Shown here: piece after piece, positions 245-58,673 of the stretch
Numbering within the stretch: position 1 is the first letter of the stretch
Layout of the letters: each line of letters starts with the position of its first letter
Source of the DNA: Candidatus Poribacteria bacterium
GTDB taxonomy: Bacteria > Poribacteria > WGA-4E > PCPOR2b
Direction: 5' to 3'
DNA length: 64,000 bases
Assembly: GCA_028819845.1 (NCBI GenBank)
Contig: JAPPKS010000006.1
Span: 1 to 64,000 of the forward strand
Notes under the pieces: generated by a model
What the model was told of the DNA's origin: nothing
The model's input: only the letters and a program-made list of their open reading frames with translations
Databases searched by the model: none
Translations under genes and position numbers: made by a program

Positions 245-607
245 TTATTGCCTATAACCGTTTTTATCCCAAGTGGACAATGCTCCGTTACCGTATTCGT
301 TAATGCTCATGACCGCTGCGCCCTCGCCTTTGCCGGATATTTGGACACGCCCGCCGTGTTCACTAATACTGAGCGTCGCCGATTTGCCGTCCTTGCCATT
401 GACCTTGACATACCCGTCGGAGTCAATGATACCGATAGCCACTCGAATTTTTCCTGTGGCATCAACGACCGTCAACCTGGTGCACTCAATATCGCCAAAT
501 TTATCACGCTGTGCCGTGACCGGAGAAAGTGACATCCCGATGATGGTGAATACGCTACCCAACGCAATTAAACCGAGTGCTCGCTTCCAATTCTGAATCC
601 TAAACAT
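245..607 (-). CDS. Membrane-anchored EHGG-repeat protein, short form
   Basis: A 120-residue protein. The start at 607 is chosen because GGGGGA precedes it by 8 bases and an N-terminal hydrophobic anchor (ALGLIALGSVFTIIGM) follows directly. After the anchor come the family markers: the sequence TAQRDKFGDIEC, a short strand region with LTVVD, then copies of a roughly 24-residue unit (GKDGKSATLSISEHGG and a degenerate next copy). It ends with the shared C-terminus SINEYGNGALSTWDKNGYRQ. Homologues in this window are at 3740-4198, 53737-53957, 53980-55134 and 55151-55707. The regular strand-turn repeats suggest a beta-solenoid outside the inner membrane. Function is unknown. The hydrophobic segment could instead be a cleaved signal ending at TAQ. 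Confidence 0.8.
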   Translation of the reverse strand: MFRIQNWKRALGLIALGSVFTIIGMSLSPVTAQRDKFGDIECTRLTVVDATGKIRVAIGIIDSDGYVKVNGKDGKSATLSISEHGGRVQISGKGEGAAVMSINEYGNGALSTWDKNGYRQ

Positions 608-945
608 GTCAAATCCCCCAATCGAAAAAGTGGTTAGTGGAGGGCAAAGATTTTTAACCGTCCAATGAATGCTATACTCATCTTTACTTAATATAATACA
701 AGAATATTCGACGTGTGTCAATACAAAATGTGATACTTGCTGAAGTAAGGGTGTGTGCGCGGTCCGAGAAGAACATGGTTTTTGCGCTACAAGAGGGTTA
801 TGTTGCGCCAACACTGCAGGGTCCAACCTAGAGGAACTATCGCGCTCTCTATTCGGTCGGTTGATCCTACAAGAACTGGCGTGACATTGGAGGTAAGCCG
901 TAACCACATTCATTGTAAATATGTCAAACATCCGTAGATTGGCCC
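608..945. other. Intergenic, no gene seen
   Basis: 338 bases between two minus-strand genes. There is no open frame with a plausible ribosome-binding site on either strand. A fragment of the dispersed motif CTCTATTCGGTCGGTTGATC lies near 846-865; relatives occur near 26430, 31005 and 41770. Confidence 0.5.
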
Positions 946-1611
946 CTATTTGCGCCTACGTACCGCTTCAATCCTTCGTGCGATGCGGGTGCGAAAATCA
1001 CTTTTAAGAGCGTATTCAATGCGGTTTCCTTTAAATCCGCGCGGGGTATTCATGATGCGTTCATAGTAGATGTCGAAGTTGTCAGAGGTAATGACGCCCG
1101 AATCCCAATGGCGGCGGAACGATGCTTCTTCCTCGGCAGTCAAATGGTTTGGCATCGTCTGTTTATCTTTAAAGGCACTCAGAGTAGTTTCATTGATATC
1201 GGAAACCAGTGATTTAACTGTTGCCTCTAATGTTGATTCAGTTGCTGTTTCTACGAGAATATCTTCGAGTCGCCCTGCTGATTGAAGAATCGACTCCCGC
1301 ATAAACTTAGGCAATTCCGGATTGACATCGCGTTCAGACAATGGTGACATGACAGTAATAGCCAACTGGTGCAATTTCTCGTCGCGCTTTACATGTACGA
1401 CATGGATGGTAAAGTTAGGGACTTTTTGAACTACCTCCACATCGGCTAATTCACGAAACGCTCGATTGAAATGGCCTTCTATCACCGGCGTTAATGACGG
1501 CGCATTAGACAAAATAGAAACATCGATTTTAATTTTGGATGCCGGTGCATTATTGGCACATACAAAAAGCACAATAAGGCAAATTATGCTTGACAATGTT
1601 TTGAATTTCAT
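946..1611 (-). CDS. Secreted hypothetical protein
   Basis: A 221-residue protein with a clear N-terminal signal (LSSIICLIVLFVCANNAPAS, cleavage likely after APA) and a hydrophilic, mixed alpha/beta mature part rich in charged residues. The start follows AAGGAGACTCTTCC with good spacing. No domain was recognised. It lies in a run of minus-strand genes encoding exported small proteins, 53 bases from the lipoprotein at 1665-1994, so the two may share a transcript. The basic C-terminal tail (RRIEAVRRRK) is unusual for a periplasmic protein. Function is not assignable. Confidence 0.75.
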   Translation of the reverse strand: MKFKTLSSIICLIVLFVCANNAPASKIKIDVSILSNAPSLTPVIEGHFNRAFRELADVEVVQKVPNFTIHVVHVKRDEKLHQLAITVMSPLSERDVNPELPKFMRESILQSAGRLEDILVETATESTLEATVKSLVSDINETTLSAFKDKQTMPNHLTAEEEASFRRHWDSGVITSDNFDIYYERIMNTPRGFKGNRIEYALKSDFRTRIARRIEAVRRRK

Positions 1612-1664
1612 GGAAGAGTCTCCTTTTGAAGAATAGTTAGGCTAACGGTTACACACCGTTCCGT

Positions 1665-1994
1665 TTATTTACTCAGATGTTGAGATTTGATATATTCCTC
1701 AATAATTTGTTCGAATTCTATCAGTCCTTCCTCGAATCCGGCAAGGCAACTTAATCGACTGAAGTCTCTGTAGAATGTTGGATGATTCCTGAGTGCTTGG
1801 TCGTCTGCTATTCTCAGGGCTTGCAAATAACCAGTCTTATACGATAGAGATGTTTTGTTGATAAGCGCCGCCCTGAGTTCCGGCGGCGCTGTCGCTTCGA
1901 TAGACGGCGTCCTGACTTCCCGCGGAGGGTGAGGTTCAATTTCCGATTGCGGTGCACATGAAACTAACGCTTGATACATTAGAATCAATATCAC
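1665..1994 (-). CDS. Putative small lipoprotein
   Basis: A 109-residue protein starting at GTG 1994. The N-terminus is hydrophobic and ends in ALVSC, a good lipobox, so the mature protein should begin at Cys13. The signal is short for a lipoprotein. Reading further upstream in frame gives IERLLCSKFLV before the GTG, which would be a textbook signal if the ATA codon at that point were once ATG, so the true start may be damaged. The mature part is proline-rich at first (PHPPREV), then helical. No family was recognised. No strong ribosome-binding site precedes either start. Confidence 0.6.
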   Translation of the reverse strand: MILILMYQALVSCAPQSEIEPHPPREVRTPSIEATAPPELRAALINKTSLSYKTGYLQALRIADDQALRNHPTFYRDFSRLSCLAGFEEGLIEFEQIIEEYIKSQHLSK

Positions 1995-2030
1995 AAGAAA
2001 TTTAGAACAGAGGAGCCGTTCTATATATAT

Positions 2031-2205
2031 AACTTACCCCCATCCTTTAGACAGAAAATAAGGGGATTTAAGTAATAAAGTCCGACTAATTCTGGTCAAT
2101 TTTCAACGCCTGAAGTTAGTGAAAATACACCTCGTAAGGTGTACGGTATTCGAGCGATTGATGTGACCGCTCTCGCTTGTAAAAATTGAAATAATCTCTC
2201 AACCG
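2031..2205 (-). mobile_element. IS3-family element, 3-prime fragment
   Basis: On the minus strand the last 29 codons of an OrfB-type transposase are followed, after about 60 bases, by an IS end (CTGTCTAAAGGATGGGGG, about 2038-2056). Everything upstream of 2205 is missing, where the fragment abuts the small gene at 2199-2255. The same end is found on the two 660-bp repeats at 12583 and 38356. Confidence 0.75.
2116..2205 (-). pseudogene. IS3-family transposase OrfB, C-terminal remnant
   Basis: The frame reads RLRDYFNFYKRERSHQSLEY followed by RTPYEVYFH and a stop. The pattern Y-N-x-x-R-x-H-x-S-L-x-x-x-T-P is the conserved C-terminus of DDE integrases of the IS3 family. Only about 29 residues remain, without the catalytic D-D-E residues, so it is not functional. 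Confidence 0.8.
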
Positions 2206-2255
2206 GCGCCAAAGATGAGTCCGACAATTGCTATAAGAATCAGCCAACCTAACAT
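2199..2255 (-). CDS. Tiny membrane peptide, probably truncated
   Basis: Eighteen residues (MLGWLILIAIVGLIFGAG), nearly all hydrophobic, behind an excellent ribosome-binding site (AAGGAGA, 6 bases from ATG). The N-terminus resembles small one- or two-helix membrane proteins of the DUF1328 type, which are longer. Its stop codon is supplied at the junction with the IS3 fragment, so an originally longer gene was probably cut by that element. It may also be a genuine one-helix peptide like those at 31085, 31198 and 36770. Confidence 0.45.
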   Translation of the reverse strand: MLGWLILIAIVGLIFGAG

Positions 2256-2316
2256 CGTGATTCTCCTTATGTAAGGATTATGGGGGAGGGGGTAGCCGCC
2301 CCCTGTGGAGAAGAAG

Positions 2317-2628
2317 CTAAAGCCTAGGGCTAGCGACAAACATGGGAAATACATGTTCATTCCCTTCCCAGTCGGAAATAGTAATCTCTCCTCTCGAATA
2401 ATCACTATCATCATCATGCTCGATGACAGTAACACAGACTTTTGCGTCACTATTGCGGTCCCGCACAACAATCCTTGGCAATCCTTGATCATCCATGGTC
2501 AAGTCAAGGATACCTATGATTGAAATTGTGTTGTTCTTAATCCAAATAGTGGGATTACCCTCGTCGTCTACGATTGTAATACTTTTGCAAGTTACAGATT
2601 CATAGGTTGGATTAGTTATATCAGACAT
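2317..2628 (-). CDS. Hypothetical protein related to the EHGG family head
   Basis: A 103-residue soluble protein. The start at 2628 follows AGAGGAGATTTACG. Its N-terminal half (VTCKSITIVDDEGNPTIWI) matches the block that follows the membrane anchor in the EHGG-repeat proteins (IEC-x-L-TVVD-x-x-G), but no anchor and no true EHGG unit are present; the later IEHDDDSDYSRGE may be a degenerate copy. It is probably a cytoplasmic or separately delivered relative. Function is unknown. Confidence 0.65.
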   Translation of the reverse strand: MSDITNPTYESVTCKSITIVDDEGNPTIWIKNNTISIIGILDLTMDDQGLPRIVVRDRNSDAKVCVTVIEHDDDSDYSRGEITISDWEGNEHVFPMFVASPRL

Positions 2629-2712
2629 CGTAAATCTCCTCTTTGTAAGGGTTGTGGGGGAGGCGTAACCCTCCCTCTTTTTTCGGCAATACATACAAGT
2701 TGGTTAATTTTC

Positions 2713-2997
2713 CTAACTCATGTCGTCAGCATCTTCCGTCATGGACTCGTCGTCCACCATGGGCTCATCTTCTGTGGGTTCAGGATCGGGTTTCCTATCA
2801 GTATCTCGGTCAATGTCTCGGTCACTTTCCCGATCAACTTCCCGGTCAATGTTAATATCTCTATCGACATCGCGCTGGAAGATGTCTAGGATACGGGTAG
2901 CTTGGTCACAACCAGTTAGCGAAACCATCATTAGCGCCAACAATACGAAAACCACAGTAAACACTGTTCCAACAGCAATGGGAGTTGTTAATTTCAT
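2713..2997 (-). CDS. Lipoprotein with Asp-Arg repeat tail
   Basis: A 94-residue protein with a strong lipoprotein signal (lipobox LTGC, Cys at about residue 30) and a start behind AAGAAGGAGATATTTC. The mature part contains a low-complexity run of D-R dipeptides (DRDINIDREVDRESDRDIDR), then an acidic tail rich in D, E and P. Such a charged zwitterionic run is probably extended and may bind metal or counter-ions, but no function is known. Its leader contains a TTATGRCGGG-type inverted repeat (3024-3106). Confidence 0.7.
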   Translation of the reverse strand: MKLTTPIAVGTVFTVVFVLLALMMVSLTGCDQATRILDIFQRDVDRDINIDREVDRESDRDIDRDTDRKPDPEPTEDEPMVDDESMTEDADDMS

Positions 2998-3023
2998 GAA
3001 ATATCTCCTTCTTGGTTTAGAAA

Positions 3024-3106
3024 GGGGCGGCGCGGAACAGGGAATACAGGAGCGTGAAACCCATGGATAGGTTTCCACTTTTTTCTACCCTATTCCGCGC
3101 CATAGG
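3024..3106 (-). repeat. Spacer inverted repeat (TTATGRCGGG family), copy 1
   Basis: On the minus strand it opens with CTATGGCGCGGAATAGGG and closes with CCCTGTTCCGCGCCGCCCC, giving a long imperfect hairpin with outer stem GGCGCGGAA/TTCCGCGCC. It overlaps the last codons of the gene at 3090-3596, supplying its stop, and ends about 25 bases before the start at 2997. It is one of about 15 members in this window. Confidence 0.65.
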
Positions 3107-3596
3107 TTGCTTTCCAATAAAATTCAAATGTGCGAACGCGGCGTTTGCAGTGCTTACACCGCGCAGCCCGTTTTATAATTTGTTTTCCGTCGGGAGCGCG
3201 CATGTTCTGGGGATTAGGTTTAATGATGCGCTTCTTGCAGTGTTTGCATTTCACAGTCAATTTTCCGAGTTCAGCCCGGATACGTTTAAAATTCTCGCTT
3301 TCCCGCATTGTAATCATGGACTGAGAACGTCTGAATATCAGCTCGTTCTTGTTTTCTTGAATTAACCTCATTTTGCTGTGTCGCCTTGCTGAATATGGGA
3401 TCTCATCTTCAGTAGGCGAAAGTGACGGTTCACCTGGGGTAAATGTTATTGAAGGCGGGCCGTCGACGTGAAAGGTAACCAGAAATGCGGCAATGGGGCC
3501 GCCGTGACCAATTATCATGGATGTCTCTTCTTCGTGCTTCACAGCGATATTACATTTATCGACGCGGTTATTAACTTCCAGCGTAAATTCATTCAT
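3090..3596 (-). CDS. Putative zinc-ribbon protein
   Basis: A 168-residue protein, start behind GAGAGGAAAC. The first 90 residues contain a beta-rich segment (TSMIIGHGGPIAAFLVTFHV). The C-terminal third carries two CKHC knuckles about 32 residues apart, both followed by basic residues (CKHCKKR, CKHCKRR), as in a four-cysteine zinc ribbon. It may bind nucleic acid or act as a structural zinc module. The last codons (ATYGAE) are encoded by the spacer repeat at 3024-3106. No closer family was recognised. Confidence 0.65.
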   Translation of the reverse strand: MNEFTLEVNNRVDKCNIAVKHEEETSMIIGHGGPIAAFLVTFHVDGPPSITFTPGEPSLSPTEDEIPYSARRHSKMRLIQENKNELIFRRSQSMITMRESENFKRIRAELGKLTVKCKHCKKRIIKPNPQNMRAPDGKQIIKRAARCKHCKRRVRTFEFYWKATYGAE

Positions 3597-3739
3597 GTTT
3601 CCTCTCCGTTAGAACCTGATGGAAAGTATGTTGCAGAGCCATTGTTTGAATATTTGAGGGTCAAAATCATCGGATTTTCAAGGCATGTACCCCAAAATTG
3701 CCTCCCCCGAGGACGGACCTGGTCCATTGAAAAGGGCTC

Positions 3740-4198
3740 TTAATGTTGATGTGATTCACCCGTGCGGATTTTGTCTTTATTCCAAGTATTGACAACACCG
3801 TTACCATGTTCATTTATGCCCATGGAAGCAATGGCTTTCGTTTTACCACTAGCAATTACATACCCGCCATGTTCATCATGACCAATGTCCACGTTCACTT
3901 TAGCGTTAGCGTCCCTTACAGTGATAGCAGGGACAATTCCCGGGTGGGTGATATACGTGGTACCGTAACGAGTACCGCCATAAAGCAGCATGCCAGTATC
4001 CAAGAGGTGTACGACACCACGATGATAAGTGTATCCATTGACCTGCAAATCCTCGTTGACCGTCAAACGCCCACACTCAATCTCTCCGAATTTTTCCTTT
4101 TGTGCGGATATGGGCGACAGCAGCATGCCGATAATGGTGAAAATACTGCCTAACGCCATTAGACCTAGCTTGTGCTTCCAATTAATCAGGGGTTTCAT
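3740..4198 (-). CDS. Membrane-anchored EHGG-repeat protein with insert
   Basis: A 152-residue member of the EHGG family: anchor KLGLMALGSIFTIIGMLL, then SAQKEKFGEIECGRLTV, an inserted segment around residues 45-90 (GYTYHRGVVHLLDTGMLLYG) absent from the other copies, one clear unit (VNVDIGHDEHGGYVIASGK), and a variant C-terminus (INEHGNGVVNTWNKDKI). The start overlaps the stop of the upstream gene (ATGA at 4195-4198), so translation is probably coupled. An AAGGAGACACCAA ribosome-binding site lies in the upstream gene's last codons. Function is unknown. Confidence 0.8.
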   Translation of the reverse strand: MKPLINWKHKLGLMALGSIFTIIGMLLSPISAQKEKFGEIECGRLTVNEDLQVNGYTYHRGVVHLLDTGMLLYGGTRYGTTYITHPGIVPAITVRDANAKVNVDIGHDEHGGYVIASGKTKAIASMGINEHGNGVVNTWNKDKIRTGESHQH

Positions 4199-4635
4199 TT
4201 GGTGTCTCCTTGTTGTTTCGGAACGGTGTCAATCGTCATTTTCAATTTAAGCTTTTCTTTAATACGCTCTAAATAATCAGCCATCTGATAAACACCATGA
4301 TACCGCCTCACATACCAGCCGCCTATTTCTACATCACTACGGCGTTTCCGAGGACGAAACACTACTTTAGGTAGAATAGGCGGAATCCTTGCAATGCCCA
4401 CTAAGGCGAGCACCTCATGAAATGTCTTATACTCTGTGTTATTTTCAACTATAGTGCCGTCTGCCATTGTGACAACCAAATGGCGGTTAGGTTCATCAGA
4501 CTTTTTGGGGATAGATGATAACCCATTTACAAACTGCATAATGACCTTACCGGTTGGACGCTGCTTCCCATACCTCTCTACGGCTTCAGAAATAGTGTCG
4601 ATCAATTGCTTCCGTTTATTATCAGAGATTGGCAT
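4195..4635 (-). CDS. Hypothetical protein, possible small-domain regulator
   Basis: A 146-residue soluble protein, start behind AAGGAAGGATTT. The first 40 residues (LIDTISEAVERYGKQRPTG...) resemble the N-terminal helices of the gene at 33020-33220 (LLDTIADAAKRLCGRRPTH), and both precede an exported protein with a 4-base ATGA overlap. The central part is strand-rich (HLVVTMADGTIVEN); the C-terminus is basic and helical (YLERIKEKLKLKM). It is coupled to the EHGG protein at 3740-4198. Function is unknown; a DNA-binding or assembly role is only a guess. Confidence 0.7.
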   Translation of the reverse strand: MPISDNKRKQLIDTISEAVERYGKQRPTGKVIMQFVNGLSSIPKKSDEPNRHLVVTMADGTIVENNTEYKTFHEVLALVGIARIPPILPKVVFRPRKRRSDVEIGGWYVRRYHGVYQMADYLERIKEKLKLKMTIDTVPKQQGDTK

Positions 4636-4659
4636 AAATCCTTCCTTTTTTGTGGAATT

Positions 4660-4710
4660 GTCCAATAAGAACCATTAGCGGACATCCCCCGCTCCCCGCC
4701 AAAAGTCTTA
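4660..4710 (-). repeat. Spacer inverted repeat, half copy
   Basis: The minus strand contains TTTTGGCGGGGAGCGGGGG, matching the opening arm of the TTATGRCGGG family. The closing arm is not evident. It lies just upstream of the gene starting at 4635, the usual location for this family. Confidence 0.4.
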
Positions 4711-5183: not shown

Positions 5184-7937
5184 TTACTTCACTATTGCCA
5201 TGCGACGTAGTGATTGATAATCGCCCGATCGCAATTGGTAGAAATACACGCCGCTTGGCACAGTTTCACCGGACTGGTTTCTGCCGTCCCAATGCGCGGC
5301 TTGTGTCTGATTGGCGTAGAAGCCCGCGTCCCGATGCCCCAAATCGAGTTGCCGCACTAGATTGCCCTGGACGTCATAAATCGTCAGCGTTACTTTGCCC
5401 GCGCGGGAGAGGTGGTACGGAATCCAGGTCTCCGGATTGAACGGGTTGGGGTAGTTTGGCAAGAGCGCGGTCTCTTTCGGCGTCAAGGCTGCGAGGAGGT
5501 GTTTCAGCGTGAGAACGCCGCGCTGGTATTGCGCTGTGTTTTTGCCCGTCAGCTTGGCTTCGGTTAGCCAGTGTTCGACCATCACCGGGGACAGGTCTGT
5601 AGGCAACTGGACGCGGGCTGCCGGTGCAGCCGGTACGCTGTCTACCGCAGCGGCGACGGCGATAACGTCGTCGATGTCGACAACCCCATCCCCGTTGACG
5701 TCCGCCGATTCTTTGCCTGTCCGCCCGTAGTGCACTGCGACGTAAACAATGTCTAGACGATCCACGCTTCCGTCGCCGTTGGCGTCCGCGATAATGGGTG
5801 GAGGCTGAGTTTCGGCAACGGCGTGAAAGGTGATTTTCTCCAACAATCCAACGGCGGATGCCTCGACAGAGTTTTTTCCCGGATTTTGCCCCAACGTCAG
5901 GGTAGTCTCCGCTTGCCCGCCGCTATCGGTCATTGCGCTTGTTGCACTGAGCTTGCCGCCGCCCACAGTGACTGTGAAAACAATTGGAACCCCTTCAATC
6001 GGGACGTGTTTCTCGTCCAGCACTGCCACGACGAACGGGTTTTCAAGCGCTTCGCCGGCGTACGCCCGTTGATCGCTCCCCGATTGGATGCGAATCCGCG
6101 GCGGTGGTCGGCTGTCAAAACCTACCTCAACTCTTCTTTCCTGTAAGGCAGGGATGTGTAGGTAAATTGAGGCGTAACTCAAGGGGTTTCCCTGCAGATG
6201 AACCTCGTCCCCATTACCCAATCCCGTATTGGCTACCAGCGGTGAAATGTCCGAGATGTTGTTGCGCGAAAGGTCCAGGATTGTAAGGTCGGTCAACCAC
6301 GATATTGCCTTGATGTCCGAGATGTTGTTTTCCCAAAGATTCAACCGTCTCAGGTTGGTTGCCGCTTCGAGCCCAGTTAAATTGCTGATGTTTGCGTTAG
6401 CGGCGTCAAGCATATCATCAAGCGCCGCCATTTCCGCCGGGGCAATGGGTTCACCGGCTGTTTTGTTGAGGGCATTCTCAACCGCGGCACGGAGGTTCGG
6501 GTCGGGTATATGGATCGGAAGCCCCGCCATGGCGTTGAATGTGACCGTCTGCCCAATTCCAGCGGCGGACACCTCTACCGTGTTTTGTCCGATATTCGCG
6601 CCCAGTGTCAACACGCTCGCTGCACGGCCGCCCCGATCTGCGTGGGCGGACTCCACACTGAGCCTGCCGCCGCCGACGGCGACAGAGAATCTAACGGCAA
6701 CCCCCTCAATCGGATTGCCGTTGTGCACATCTCGGACTTCAACGACAAACGGGACGAGTAACGGTGTATCCGGCAAGCCGTGTTGGTTGTCTCCTGAGAC
6801 TTTCGTTAACGGCTCTAATTTTTCCGAAAACAACGTAAAGTCTCTCCACGACACATTGCCATCCGTATCAATGGCTTCAATGGTAATCGGATGGGTAGTC
6901 GGATTAAAAAGGTTCGTGTTTCTGCTGTAAGGTAGGGAATGTGCATGGGGAATAACGCCGTCGTAATCAAAGGCAGCAGTTTCCTCTTGGTTTCCCCCCA
7001 ACCCAAAACACGCCTTGACCGAACTGCCGTTGGGACTATCGGGTTGATTAACGTGTAAGATTACCTGGTGAAGTCCGTCAAAATCATGGAGGCGGGGACT
7101 GACAATGATATTACTTGCGAATGCTGAATATGAACGGGGCGAAATGAGTTCTATGGTGGGCGGCTCCCCCGCTTCAATTGGGGTGCTCTGATTGAAGTAG
7201 GTATGAACCGACAAATACACCGCATGGCATTGAGATAACCGCTTCTCATCCCGGGAACTAGGGCCATACGACATTACGTAGGCACCATCTCGGAAATCGT
7301 GGTAAAGTCCAAAGGCGTGTCCCAATTCGTGTGCGATTAGCCACCAATCAAATGCACGCAAGCAAAACGCGAATCCGCCGCGTTTTGAATATGCGCGGCC
7401 TTGACCGCCATCAATATACGCCGTCTCAAGTGTGCCCGGTCGGTCGATGAAAACGAGATAAACGTTCTCATAAAGATTGAACGCTTCTTCAATCTCGCCA
7501 ATTACAACAGGCGTACTGCCAAAGCCTTGTGGATAATGGCTGTCCGGGTATCTCCCGCCGACCTGATTCACTATCGGTTCACCGTAAGCGTCCGTTTCAA
7601 CCCGGAAGGTTTGCCGTCCGTAGCCGTGCGCTTGCATCTGATCGGCAAAAAAGCTTTGTGCGATGCTAAGCTGTTCCTTAATTCGTTTCACCACTTGTTC
7701 CCGATACGGGCGGTCATTGGGTAAAAAGTAAATTATGCGCACGGTGCGTGTTGTTCCGACATTCAGAGCAAGGGTTTTGGAGCGGGCATCTGGGTGCGTG
7801 CCGCGCTTATGGTACTGATGTCCGGTAAACCCGCAGTAATGCGCTGCCGATTTAGGCGGGGCGGCAAGCGCGGCGGTTAGGTTAACAAGGCACAAAAGCA
7901 CCGTGCAAAGCGATAACCGAAAAAATCGGATTTTCAC
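5184..7937 (-). CDS. Secreted multidomain metalloprotease with sorting tail
   Basis: A 917-residue exported protein (signal 1-26, GTG start behind AGGAG). Residues about 30-260 form a metzincin-like peptidase: H203-E-L-G-H-A-F-G-L-Y-H213 is the extended HExxHxxGxxH zinc site, with a Met-turn (VMSYG) soon after. Then come an Ig-like group 1 (Big_1) module at about 372-468, leucine-rich repeats at about 470-605, a second Big_1 module at about 613-705, and two dockerin-like calcium loops (DANGDGSVDRLD and DVNGDGVVDIDD). The FlgD-like tail holds YPNPFNPETWIPY and ASGVYFYQL. It is probably exported through a type IX-like route and displayed on the cell surface, degrading extracellular protein. Confidence 0.85.
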   Translation of the reverse strand: MKIRFFRLSLCTVLLCLVNLTAALAAPPKSAAHYCGFTGHQYHKRGTHPDARSKTLALNVGTTRTVRIIYFLPNDRPYREQVVKRIKEQLSIAQSFFADQMQAHGYGRQTFRVETDAYGEPIVNQVGGRYPDSHYPQGFGSTPVVIGEIEEAFNLYENVYLVFIDRPGTLETAYIDGGQGRAYSKRGGFAFCLRAFDWWLIAHELGHAFGLYHDFRDGAYVMSYGPSSRDEKRLSQCHAVYLSVHTYFNQSTPIEAGEPPTIELISPRSYSAFASNIIVSPRLHDFDGLHQVILHVNQPDSPNGSSVKACFGLGGNQEETAAFDYDGVIPHAHSLPYSRNTNLFNPTTHPITIEAIDTDGNVSWRDFTLFSEKLEPLTKVSGDNQHGLPDTPLLVPFVVEVRDVHNGNPIEGVAVRFSVAVGGGRLSVESAHADRGGRAASVLTLGANIGQNTVEVSAAGIGQTVTFNAMAGLPIHIPDPNLRAAVENALNKTAGEPIAPAEMAALDDMLDAANANISNLTGLEAATNLRRLNLWENNISDIKAISWLTDLTILDLSRNNISDISPLVANTGLGNGDEVHLQGNPLSYASIYLHIPALQERRVEVGFDSRPPPRIRIQSGSDQRAYAGEALENPFVVAVLDEKHVPIEGVPIVFTVTVGGGKLSATSAMTDSGGQAETTLTLGQNPGKNSVEASAVGLLEKITFHAVAETQPPPIIADANGDGSVDRLDIVYVAVHYGRTGKESADVNGDGVVDIDDVIAVAAAVDSVPAAPAARVQLPTDLSPVMVEHWLTEAKLTGKNTAQYQRGVLTLKHLLAALTPKETALLPNYPNPFNPETWIPYHLSRAGKVTLTIYDVQGNLVRQLDLGHRDAGFYANQTQAAHWDGRNQSGETVPSGVYFYQLRSGDYQSLRRMAIVK

Positions 7938-51068: not shown

Positions 51069-52997
<1,929 letters not shown>

Positions 52998-53736: not shown

Positions 53737-53957
53737 TTGTTACAACTTCAGAATTGGAAAATAAAATTGGTCTATATCGGATTCGGTAGTTTCTTCGGTT
53801 GTCTTTGCGCGATAATCGGGATGTTAGCGTCACCGGTCACGGCGCAAAGAGATAAGTTCGGGGATACGGCAAATCGGGCGCGGCACTCGGAGTAGGGGAA
53901 AACGGCGGGATTGTCGGCACTAATGATAAATTCGGGAATACAAACGTCCTAGACTAG
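53737..53957 (+). pseudogene. EHGG-repeat protein, deleted and frameshifted
   Basis: TTG 53737 lies behind AAGGAGAAGGCACA. It reads the family anchor (LVYIGFGSFFGCLCAIIGML) and VTAQRDKFGD, then the frame breaks. The family sequence resumes in another frame as YGKSGAALGVGENGGIVGTN, ending at 53957. The IEC-x-L-TVVD block and most repeats are missing. An internal deletion and a frameshift have therefore inactivated this copy. Confidence 0.6.
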
Positions 53958-53979
53958 AAAAGCACAGGAGGGCAACACA

Positions 53980-55134
53980 ATGTTTAGCAGCAAAGATTTG
54001 AAGGTTAAGTTGGTCTATATGGGTTTTGGCGGAATGATTGCTATCATCGGGATGTTGATTGGAATTGGGATGCTGTCTTCGGTCATAGCGAAAAATGATA
54101 AGTTCGGCGATATTGAGTGTTCAAGTTTGAGGGTCGTTGATGAAGACGGCATAACAAGGATAATCCTCAGCACTGACGATCTCGCAGGTTATGATGACGA
54201 AAACATAAGGGTGCGTATTACGGGGGACGCTTCCGATGGCGATGTCTATGTCCATGGCAAGGGCGGTTCCAAGTACGGCAGTGCGAGTGCGACGCTTGGA
54301 ATCGGCAAAAATCGTATCGAACACACTGACCCATTAAAAATAGAATGGAGACAACACGGTTATGTCGGTGCCTATGGGGGTAATCCAGAAGTGGGATCGG
54401 TCGAGTTGAGTATCAATGAACATGGTGGGATGGTCGATGTTCGTGGAAAGGATCCTATAACGAGGGGGGTGTTTATCGGTATCAATCAAAATGAAAACGG
54501 CGGAGTTGTGAGTGTTTATGGCATGGGCGACAGCAAATCGGAGGCGAGGCTTGGTATCAGTGAAAACGGTGGCGGAGTTGATGTCTTTGGCAAAGATGGA
54601 GAATTGTACGTGGGGCTCAGCACCGATGAACGCGGGGGGCATGTTAATGCCTACGGCAAGGATGGCTTGGGTGTGGCGCTTGATATTGATGAATACGGTG
54701 GGAGTGTTACCGCCTATGGCAAGGATGGTAATCTGAATGCGTCGGGGATCGGCATTGATGAACACGGAGGGGTTGCCTATATCTTTGGCAAGCACGGCAA
54801 ATCGGGTGTGAGGCTCAGTAGCGATGAACACGGCGGGGAAGTCAATATCGTGGGCAAGGACGGCGGATCGGGGGTGTTGCTCAGTGCCAGTGAACACGGC
54901 GGGGATGTTCTTCTCAGTAGCATTGACAGCGTGAGGGTGTCGCTCGGTATCAGTGAACACGGGGGGCATGTCATCGCCTATGGCGAAGGCAAATCGGCTG
55001 CGTCGCTCCGTGTTGACGAAGAAGGCGGGGATGTCAGAGTTTTCGGCAGAGGTAAAGGCGAGGCTACCTTGAGCATCAACGAATATGGCAACGGTGGCGT
55101 CTCCACTTGGGACAAAAACGGCTATCGGCAATAA
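53980..55134 (+). CDS. Membrane-anchored EHGG-repeat protein, long form
   Basis: A 384-residue protein; start behind GGAGGGCAACACA. The anchor is at about 9-35 (VYMGFGGMIAIIGMLIGIGM). Residues 42-80 contain NDKFGDIECSSLRVVDEDGI. Then about ten units of roughly 24 residues follow, each with E-(H/N/Y/R)-G-G between two short strands (LSTDERGGHVNAYGKDGLGV, LSSDEHGGEVNIVGKDGGSG), and the C-terminus ends SINEYGNGGVSTWDKNGYRQ. It predicts a long beta-solenoid on the outer face of the inner membrane or beyond. The DNA coding for repeats is itself internally similar, so length change by recombination is likely. Function is unknown. Confidence 0.8.
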   Translation: MFSSKDLKVKLVYMGFGGMIAIIGMLIGIGMLSSVIAKNDKFGDIECSSLRVVDEDGITRIILSTDDLAGYDDENIRVRITGDASDGDVYVHGKGGSKYGSASATLGIGKNRIEHTDPLKIEWRQHGYVGAYGGNPEVGSVELSINEHGGMVDVRGKDPITRGVFIGINQNENGGVVSVYGMGDSKSEARLGISENGGGVDVFGKDGELYVGLSTDERGGHVNAYGKDGLGVALDIDEYGGSVTAYGKDGNLNASGIGIDEHGGVAYIFGKHGKSGVRLSSDEHGGEVNIVGKDGGSGVLLSASEHGGDVLLSSIDSVRVSLGISEHGGHVIAYGEGKSAASLRVDEEGGDVRVFGRGKGEATLSINEYGNGGVSTWDKNGYRQ

Positions 55135-55150
55135 CAAAGGGGGATTCAAG

Positions 55151-55273
55151 ATGAATGAGATAAACACGGCACATCTGGTTATCATGGTTATCAGTGGTAT
55201 TGCTGGCGGAATCATCTGGAATGTTTTGACAGCTCTGTTGAATGGTTACTTCAGAGAAAAATGGGGGGGGTGA
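55151..55273 (+). CDS. Membrane anchor piece of a split EHGG protein
   Basis: A 40-residue protein; start behind AAAGGGGGATTCAAG. One membrane helix (AHLVIMVISGIAGGIIWNVL) is followed by a basic end FREKW and a G8 tract at 55263-55270 containing its stop. It overlaps the frame at 55261-55707 by 13 bases. With one more G (G9) the two frames become one protein with anchor and IEC-x-L-TVID head, as in the family. It is therefore probably the first part of a single gene with a contingency tract. Confidence 0.6.
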   Translation: MNEINTAHLVIMVISGIAGGIIWNVLTALLNGYFREKWGG

Positions 55274-55707
55274 ATTTTAATTCAAAACTCACTTCCCCGG
55301 AGATTGAGTGTAAGAGATTGACGGTCATTGATCGTAATGGCAAACCGAGAGTGATTCTCGCCAGCGATTATCCATTCATTAGCGATATTCCTCGATCCAT
55401 GCCCCCGTCCAAGTGGGACGGGTTTGAGGGCGTTCTTATCTATAGTGATGAAAACTCCGGGAGGGTCACGATCAATGGCAATAGCAAAAGCGAAACCAAG
55501 CGCAACACAGTATCACTCTTTGCCAGCGAACACGGCGGTAGTATTGGGGTCTATGACGAAAGCGAAGGTAATGTAGAGATAATTATCGACAAACACGGGG
55601 GATATGTTGAAGCATCCTCTGGCAAAGGCGGGCGGTGTGCCATGTGTATTAACGAATACGGCAACGGGGCTGTCTCCACATGGGACAAAAACGGTTATAA
55701 GCAATAG
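55261..55707 (+). CDS. EHGG-repeat protein body, no anchor in this frame
   Basis: A 148-residue frame beginning with the ATG that starts the G8 tract. It carries SPEIECKRLTVIDRNGKPRV, an insert (YPFISDIPRSMPPSKWDGFE), units FASEHGGSIGVYDESEGNVE and IIDKHGGYVEASSGKGG, and the C-terminus CINEYGNGAVSTWDKNGYKQ. It has no signal or anchor of its own; the ATG has no proper ribosome-binding site. It is most likely expressed by frameshift from 55151 or after a change in G-tract length. Confidence 0.6.
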   Translation: MGGVNFNSKLTSPEIECKRLTVIDRNGKPRVILASDYPFISDIPRSMPPSKWDGFEGVLIYSDENSGRVTINGNSKSETKRNTVSLFASEHGGSIGVYDESEGNVEIIIDKHGGYVEASSGKGGRCAMCINEYGNGAVSTWDKNGYKQ

Positions 55708-55720
55708 CAAAGGGAGGGCA

Positions 55721-55963
55721 ATGAGCTACAAAGATCAGAGACGCTCTAAAAGCGGTTTGATTCACTACTGGGGCTAATGCAAGGACTGCGACATGACCTT
55801 TGGCACCCGCAATGCTGTGGGCTTGGCTGCCCAGCATACTGACCGCACGGGACACACAACAACTGTGGAAACCGGACACTACTACACATTCTTTCTCGAT
55901 GGGAACGAAGAAGGTGTCTTGGGGGACAGGGAGGTGCAAAAGGATGCGAAACCGTCCACCTGA
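55721..55963 (+). pseudogene. Small zinc-finger-like protein with an in-frame stop
   Basis: ATG 55721 lies behind AGGGAGGGCA. The frame runs 18 codons (MSYKDQRRSKSGLIHYWG), hits TAA at 55775-55777, and continues in the same frame CKDCDMTFGTRNAVGLAAQH then TDRTGHTTTVETGHYYTF to a stop at 55961. The C-x-x-C with H-x(4-5)-H and A-V-G-L-A-A-Q-H-x-x-x-T-G-H pattern is that of small zinc-finger-like proteins. The stop falls where a Lys or Gln would be expected before CKDC. It is a nonsense mutation unless recoded. Confidence 0.6.
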
Positions 55964-56006
55964 TATACGGATTGAATCGAACCCAACCCAAAAGGAGAAA
56001 TTTCTA

Positions 56007-57088: not shown

Positions 57089-57134
57089 ATATCTGATATT
57101 GTTCCCATAATCTCCACCCCTAAGGATGAGGACA

Positions 57135-58673
57135 ATGAACCGTGACACCATTGTCGTTTTAGATTTTGGATCGCAGTATACGCAGTTGATTGCCAGGCGC
57201 ATTCGTGAACAAGAGGTGTACTGTGAAATTCATCCATACTATACCCACGCCGATCAGTTAGCCTCAATGCAGCCTAAGGGAATAGTCTTATCCGGCGGCC
57301 CCTCGAGCGTTTACGCGCCAGATGCGCCCCTTCCCGATACCGGGATTTTTGCGCTTGGTGTTCCCATTCTAGGTATATGTTACGGCATGCAGCTCGTCGC
57401 ACATCTGTCAAACGGCGGTGTGGTACACCCGGCCGATGAACGTGAATACGGTTCGGCGGAACTGGTCGTTGATTTGCCGATTCCGCTGTTCGCAAATCTG
57501 CGGGGCGAGGTGAACGTGTGGATGAGTCACGGCGATCGAATCGAGGTGCTGCCGCAAGGATTCCTCCAGATCGCCCACACGCGCAACTCGCCAATCGCGG
57601 CGATGGGCGATATAGACCGGGATATCTACGGGTTGCAGTTCCATCCCGAGGTTGTTCACACAAAGGACGATAACCAAATCCTCTCGAACTTTGTCTTTGA
57701 AATTTGTGAATGCAGTAAAGGATGGACCATGAAATCCTTTGTCGCCGAGGCAACGGAGAACCTCCAAAAGCAGATTCAAGGACATCGCGTCTTATGCGCC
57801 GTGAGCGGCGGTGTTGATTCAACTGTCCTTGCAGTTTTGCTCCGGCGCGCTATCGGCGAAGCGCTTGCTTGCGTGTTTGTTAACAACGGCTTGTTGCGGA
57901 AAAATGAAGCGGAATGCGTGATTGAAGATTTTCGGCAGCTTGGAATCGAAGTGCACTGCATCGACGCTACAGATCGATTCCTGAATTGCCTAGCCAACGT
58001 TGACAGTCCAGAGGAAAAACGCAAGCGAATCGGGAACCAGTTTATCGAAGTTTTTCGAGACGAGTTGGGGACGTTAGGGGCGATTGACCACCTTGCGCAG
58101 GGCACCCTCTACCCCGATGTAATCGAAAGTGTGTCCGTCAAAGGGCCGTCTGCAACCATAAAGACGCACCATAACGTTGGCGGATTGCCCAAAGATTTAC
58201 CCTTCAAACTCGTCGAACCGTTCCGAGATTTGTTCAAAGACGAAGTCCGCGCAGTAGGCATCGAGTTAGGCATCCCGAAACCGATTCTTGGGCGGCATCC
58301 TTTTCCAGGTCCCGGTTTAGCTGTCCGGGTTATCGGCGCTGTTACCCAAGAGCGGCTAGATATTCTCCGTGAAGCGGACGAAATCTTCATCGCAGAAATT
58401 AAGAAAGCTGGGTTGTATAATGAGATTTGGCAAGCGCTGGCGGTGCTGCTGCCAGTTAAGAGTGTCGGAGTGATGGGAGATGAGCGAACCTACGAAAACG
58501 TGGTCGCGCTCCGCGCTGTCACCAGCACCGATGCCATGACCGCGGATTGGGCGCGCATTCCTGACGGCGTACTAGCGGTAATCTCCAATCGTATCATCAA
58601 CGAGGTGCAAGGTATCAACCGCGTCGTTTACGATATTAGCTCAAAACCGCCTAGCACCATTGAATGGGAGTAA
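57135..58673 (+). CDS. guaA: GMP synthase, glutamine-hydrolysing
   Basis: A 512-residue enzyme that aminates XMP to GMP using glutamine and ATP. The N-terminal class I amidotransferase domain has the nucleophile in GICYGMQLV and the histidine in [10 protein letters not shown]. The ATP-pyrophosphatase P-loop is [14 protein letters not shown]. The C-terminus is KPPSTIEWE, the usual GuaA ending. ATG 57135 is preferred over 57126 because GAGG precedes it at 4 bases. It opens the plus-strand housekeeping block. Confidence 0.95.

Follow-up and report, generated by a model that had tools for sequence, protein, structure and literature searches.

The closest described counterparts of the proteins considered here are hairpin-repeat and tandem-repeat proteins from other organisms. 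In Borrelia OspA and its engineered repeat mutants, hairpins are joined in one long flat sheet; OspA itself is a lipoprotein with globular end domains. Gram-positive tandem-repeat surface proteins are exported, and their unit number varies between relatives. The MORN repeat is a beta-hairpin of about 23 residues that forms an elongated antiparallel array, and it is defined by GxG and YEGEW motifs and by aromatic stacking (PMC7725318). Here we describe repeat proteins from a genome of the Poribacteria, which are dominant, uncultured sponge symbionts (PMC3909097). Their units carry an EHGG-type motif, and they were found in a 64,000-nucleotide stretch of DNA (the window) and elsewhere in the same genome. 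Taken together, our results describe a lineage-expanded, probably exported, hairpin-repeat family without a name in the libraries searched; it is well supported as a family, and its function can be suggested only tentatively.

Profile searches and open reading frames identified seven family ORFs in the window, which derive from six genes. An earlier note on this DNA had described a paralogous family clustered on the plus strand. The copies are indeed paralogues, but only three of the genes, arranged in tandem (53737-55707), are on the plus strand; the other three are on the minus strand (245-4198), about 50 kb away, and the family is therefore not one plus-strand cluster. The features are as follows.

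245-607, minus strand: 120-aa member with predicted signal peptide, first strand (head), three hairpins, and the end ALSTWDKNGYRQ (profile search, AlphaFold2)
2317-2694, minus strand: head-only relative (VTCKSITIVDDEGNP...), no signal peptide seen; weak profile match at 2530-2607 (E = 0.003)
3740-4198, minus strand: 152-aa member with atypical middle and end (NTWNKDKIRTGESHQH) (genome search, head profile)
53737-53957, plus strand: degraded first gene of the tandem, with TTG start, predicted signal peptide, KFGD, an out-of-frame join, and a last unit ending in NTNVLD
53980-55134, plus strand: 384-aa member with about 11 recognizable hairpin units
53980-54090, plus strand: predicted signal peptide of the 384-aa copy, residues 1-37, ending in SSVIA with putative cleavage before K (alignment A2)
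54400-55131, plus strand: regular hairpin units of the 384-aa copy, 21-25 residues each
55152-55273, plus strand: hydrophobic N-terminus of the third gene (ISGIAGGIIWNVLTALL, which corresponds to ISGIVGGVIGSLLTALL in other copies), with a TGA just past the G8 run
55263-55270, plus strand: G8 run between the signal segment and the head of the third gene
55261-55707, plus strand: head, units, and end of the third gene; one more G would join this frame to the N-terminal segment

The family was defined by a head profile (A2) built from 25 members. The KFG(D/E)IEC head that had been read in these paralogues is common to them, with head-profile E values in their own genome down to 5e-25, and the EHGG-type repeats were likewise confirmed. 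In the profile search, the window copies combined a hydrophobic N-terminus with a first strand of the form IxCxxLxVVDxxG. Family members also carry at least two units of about 22 residues, which the head-only copy at 2317 does not; this protein, previously listed as a relative, is related, but only weakly (profile E = 0.003). For the 120-aa copy, the start was taken as MFRIQNWK, inside the longer ORF 245-931. Short ORFs at 2096-2247 (minus), which we take by eye to be the end of an IS3-type transposase, adjoin the head-only copy and had no Pfam match. On the same strand, a long protein at 5184-7937 appears by eye to contain repeated immunoglobulin-like stretches and a FlgD/Por-like C-terminal domain; sorting domains of the FlgD/Por-like kind have been reported in Poribacteria (PMC3909097).

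The family extends well beyond the window. When the 384-aa protein was used as the query, it hit 24 places in its own genome (G000, in which the window is C11:1-64000), and its best match elsewhere in that genome (1e-21) was far beyond chance. The head profile recovered 18 loci in G000 at E up to 1e-3 and 20 at 0.01, and it found the head in 72 of the phylum's 85 genomes, from 16 of its 22 genera. G000 has the most copies (18; about 18-20), followed by G009 (12), G012 (11), and G066 (10). In a tree of 53 heads, which spans only 74 columns, the own-genome label required 4 changes compared with 13.3 for shuffled labels, suggesting that most G000 copies came from expansion within its lineage. The window copies matched nothing above cutoffs in Pfam, NCBIfam, or PHROGs, and a search of the PDB by sequence gave no credible match (the hits, at E 0.17 and 0.58, were to two flavin enzymes unrelated to the family). 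Similarly, tblastn with the 384-aa copy found no match in phage (50,697 records) or plasmid records, and no description of the EHGG family was found in the literature on Poribacteria. Gene neighborhoods differed from locus to locus and revealed no conserved partner gene; a suspected common neighbor (window 4195-4665 and L012:6800-7360) reached only E = 0.004 in a two-sequence comparison. At individual loci, a tyrosine-recombinase gene (PF00589; 3437-4548, minus) was observed between a family gene and a unit-bearing fragment (L015, G000:C11:82000-90000), and an integrase-core gene (PF00665; L009:4398-4880) and an IS1595 transposase gene (PF12762; L011:5513-6448) were observed close to family copies. 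This is a sizeable unannotated family, though its type of fold is known.

The N-termini are informative about where these proteins act. Most members have basic residues, a hydrophobic core, and an x-x-A-Q junction, and position A37 was kept in at least 90% of the 25 aligned heads. In a regular-expression parse of 49 members, in which Ala stands at minus one in 43 by construction and the head is misplaced in a few rows, Gln occupied plus one in 32 and minus three was mostly V, T, L, or I. One paralogue (C16:40400) has a lipobox (VLSGC, with LSGC as its core), which is absent from the window copies. Judged by its sequence, the N-terminus looks like a cleavable signal peptide of the signal peptidase I pattern, which points to family proteins acting outside the cytoplasm. 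The earlier note had called the proteins membrane-anchored; the shared hydrophobic stretch is there, but an anchor is not supported, as the stretch in most members ends in a small or aliphatic residue, any residue, and Ala, followed by Gln. An argument can be made that the signal remains uncleaved and tethers the sheet, as a periplasmic or surface domain, to the inner membrane. A helix over residues 4-31 in the 384-aa model is consistent with such an anchor, as are the hydrophobic segments lacking an Ala-Gln junction in the third tandem gene and in a Planctomycetota relative. Yet few N-terminal features are as well conserved as the Ala-Gln junction with its small or aliphatic residue at minus three. 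Such a junction would be expected of a signal peptidase I substrate but not of a plain anchor, which leaves the anchored form rather unlikely. Exactly one Cys is present in 37 of the 49 parsed mature chains, usually that of the first strand. Elsewhere in the genome, a periplasmic ligand-binding-like protein (L078, G000:C21:237562) has an N-terminus that resembles that of the family.

Structure prediction suggests how the mature chain is built. The 120-aa copy was modeled as a monomer with AlphaFold2 from an alignment of the window copies and two public relatives, and pLDDT was 81-95 over residues 41-120. The model has seven strands (44-48, 54-61, 64-70, 76-82, 85-91, 97-103, and 108-113), the first being the RLTVV of the head and the last two (AAVMSIN and GALSTW) the tail. 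Since the head forms strand 1 and the tail the final hairpin, both are end units of the array and belong to one sheet, contrary to the constant head and tail around the repeats that had been proposed. In the 384-aa model there are two strands per unit, with pLDDT of about 54-89 over residues 190-384, an overall value of 57, and a poor first half. In both models, short strands follow one another with tight turns between them. The turns have about two residues, the length that a hairpin requires between paired strands, and we read the models as an antiparallel beta-meander. The regular solenoid that had been expected was not recovered for either copy: the strands are hairpin-like and successive, no beta-helix was among the top PDB fold matches of the two models, and the top matches of both were OspA single-layer sheets, weak at E 0.003 and 0.17 with TM about 0.3. 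MORN-type viral proteins were also among the fold matches. That the mature chain would be one antiparallel beta-meander is fairly well supported by these predictions, with strand order deduced from the turn lengths and the weak OspA matches.

Single-chain prediction could, however, wrongly flatten a homotrimeric fiber of the phage tail fiber or spike type. Both models or one of them matched the predicted folds of viral proteins from tails, neck appendages, and baseplates (E = 2e-6 to 1e-3), which would be in line with a fiber, as would the alternating hydrophobic positions, which give one face that needs cover. Nevertheless, these viral matches had high rmsd and low TM, no sequence match was found in phages, plasmids, or PHROGs, and two-residue turns fit hairpins. 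We regard a fiber as improbable and continue with the meander.

Among 57 members with 213 units, the spacing between units had a mode of 22 residues and was mostly 21-23, which replaces the period of roughly 24 residues first suggested. Unit number does vary, as had been claimed, but the supposed maximum of about ten is exceeded by the 384-aa copy with its 11 or so recognizable units, of which the "tail" is the last. In the unit consensus, hydrophobic residues alternate on either side of the G-G turn, and position by position there is no conserved Trp or Tyr pair. The end INEYGNG-x-x-STWDKNGY(R/K)Q is common to three window copies (245-607 minus, 53980-55134 plus, and 55261-55707 plus). It is not the fixed C-terminus of the family: neither the 3740 copy nor the degraded one has it, and several other endings (...GSVP, ...ILD, and ...WEAP) occur in the family at large. 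As predicted here, EHGG units resemble MORN repeats (PF02493 and PF07661), which are hairpins of about 23 residues in an elongated antiparallel array, but they have neither the GxG and YEGEW motifs nor the aromatic stack. Membership in MORN was considered and rejected, as no real member had a Pfam MORN match; MORN_2 scored only with a hand-typed consensus, which is not a real protein. With OspA, the family would share hairpins in one long flat sheet, as the weak fold matches of both models suggest, but it has no sequence relation to OspA.

Our results also bear on how the arrays acquired their lengths. Relatives show in-frame duplication of units at the DNA level, with a 63-nt unit repeated at 95% identity in one locus (L023) and a 150-nt block of two units at 87% in another (L013). 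In the 384-aa window copy, units are about 60-76% identical at the DNA level, which indicates that its length is old. Furthermore, a subfamily in genus g8 comprises 15 distinct orthologues of 156-160 aa with a median dN/dS of 0.19; this value, along with the constant length, argues for a real protein under purifying selection with a fixed number of units. The suggestion that length varies by recombination is not borne out for the window copy, with its divergent units, and the g8 subfamily keeps its length. Gram-positive tandem-repeat surface proteins are similar in that unit number varies between relatives and that the proteins are exported, as the EHGG proteins appear to be; unlike theirs, EHGG units have diverged instead of staying near-identical, and the proteins lack a wall-sorting signal.

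The plus-strand tandem lies between genes that we take, from their translations, to be thiC (51069-52994, minus) and guaA (57126-58673, plus). Its intergenic gaps are 22 and 17 bases long and a purine-rich, ribosome-binding-like stretch precedes each start, so that the three genes look like one transcription unit. The first had been called degraded, and we agree: KFGD is followed, in another frame, by GKSGAALGVGENGGIVGTNDKFGNTNVLD, which looks like the product of an internal out-of-frame deletion. The reported split of the last gene was likewise found, with the break at the G8 run (55263-55270), and it may reflect slippage, a true frameshift, or an assembly error. Two further observations concern the 384-aa gene. 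A 293-aa open frame runs antisense to it (54334-55215, minus) and is most likely a shadow of its regular codons. In addition, GC skew reaches the window maximum of +0.25 at 54001-56000, matching the G-rich codons of the hairpin units.

A run of this kind within a repeat gene raises the prospect of length- and phase-variable surface proteins, whose unit number and slipping G run would switch and resize them and vary the cell surface. The in-frame duplications in relatives and the many paralogues of differing unit number speak for this, as does the position of the G8, precisely where signal segment and head adjoin in one copy. Such runs are rare: there are six of at least eight G or C in the 4.6-Mb genome, one of them this G8, compared with an expectation of 1.35 per 64 kb when the window is modeled as a first-order Markov chain, a figure that is too high for coding DNA. 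The remaining long runs are found inside an intact secA-like gene, close to other genes, or in intergenic DNA. With other G8 runs intact in secA or intergenic, the G8 is no sign of switching here, and as a general switch it was rejected as unsupported. Considering also the old, divergent units of the window copy and the fixed-length subfamily under purifying selection, we find variation of this sort doubtful.

Another interpretation is that these are decaying repeat genes without function, spread by mobile elements. The degraded and split copies in the window would be expected from decay, along with remnants elsewhere (e.g., 66 aa at C16:43941) and transposase or integrase genes near three other loci. 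Against this, the reading frame of most copies stays open for 130-400 codons and has a plausible ribosome-binding site, and dN/dS is about 0.19 in the core subfamily, making decay a highly improbable account of the family.

Relatives were detected in two other phyla, all of them hypothetical proteins: WDT82930.1 from a plasmid of Candidatus Manganitrophus (Nitrospirota) and the protein at WZP01262.1 from a plasmid of Isosphaeraceae bacterium EP7 (Planctomycetota). Poribacterial members of the type VVDENGKPRIVL (L026) led to the proteins on Manganitrophus plasmids, and a generic, hand-typed repeat consensus retrieved the same Manganitrophus records, with an identity of about 50%, as well as a single Planctomycetota plasmid (31%). 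In phmmer searches against the Poribacteria set, the best E values were 3.8e-10 (Manganitrophus) and 1e-7 (Isosphaeraceae), and 19 true members ranked before the first of 1140 shuffled decoys in each search. The EHGG-unit profile scored near noise against the Nitrospirota and Planctomycetota proteins, and the link runs only via intermediate DENGK-type members; the Manganitrophus protein had no match in G000, and the relatives had none in Pfam. Like the EHGG family, these relatives have a hydrophobic N-terminus (ending in SASAQ in Manganitrophus), a first strand of the type EIRLIDKDRKVRATL, and units of 22-23 residues with a D-G turn. They differ in having the turn DGSPGL where the EHGG family has EHGGxV, and in lacking the head Cys and STWDKNGYRQ. 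On Manganitrophus plasmid CP114558.1 (L082:1691-2351), the relative is split between signal segment and first strand, and the copy on CP114563.1 is intact.

We think it reasonably probable that the EHGG proteins are a lineage-expanded family of exported beta-meander proteins with a structural or binding role. A Sec-type signal peptide would be cut between Ala and Gln of (V/L/I/A/T)-x-A-Q, or processed at a lipobox in one paralogue, so that the mature chain would leave the cytoplasm and act either in the periplasm or on the cell surface. Each 22-residue unit of the mature chain would contribute two short beta strands, and the tight turns would be formed by G-G and D-G; this fold is predicted confidently for the short copy and in part for the long one. 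Units would be added in frame by duplication, as the DNA of relatives shows, yielding sheets of different length, while at least one orthologous subfamily keeps its length. More speculatively, because one face of the sheet is more hydrophobic, it would probably pair with another chain or partner, perhaps via the single first-strand Cys that most members keep, and might have a structural or binding role in the cell envelope. A bolder version seems quite unlikely, namely, a phylum-wide and previously undescribed modular exported class in which the whole mature chain is one extendable, Cys-paired sheet of lineage-tuned length that builds an envelope or attachment layer.

Our findings have implications for annotation and for the biology of the phylum. 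A family that is present in most genomes of the phylum, and that has no Pfam or NCBIfam name, represents an annotation gap, and its connection with repeat proteins in Nitrospirota and Planctomycetota points to a single broad family, likewise unnamed. Hairpin-only chains that differ stepwise in unit number would offer a naturally occurring parallel to the engineered OspA sheets. For Poribacteria themselves, the family is a natural candidate for envelope or host-contact functions.
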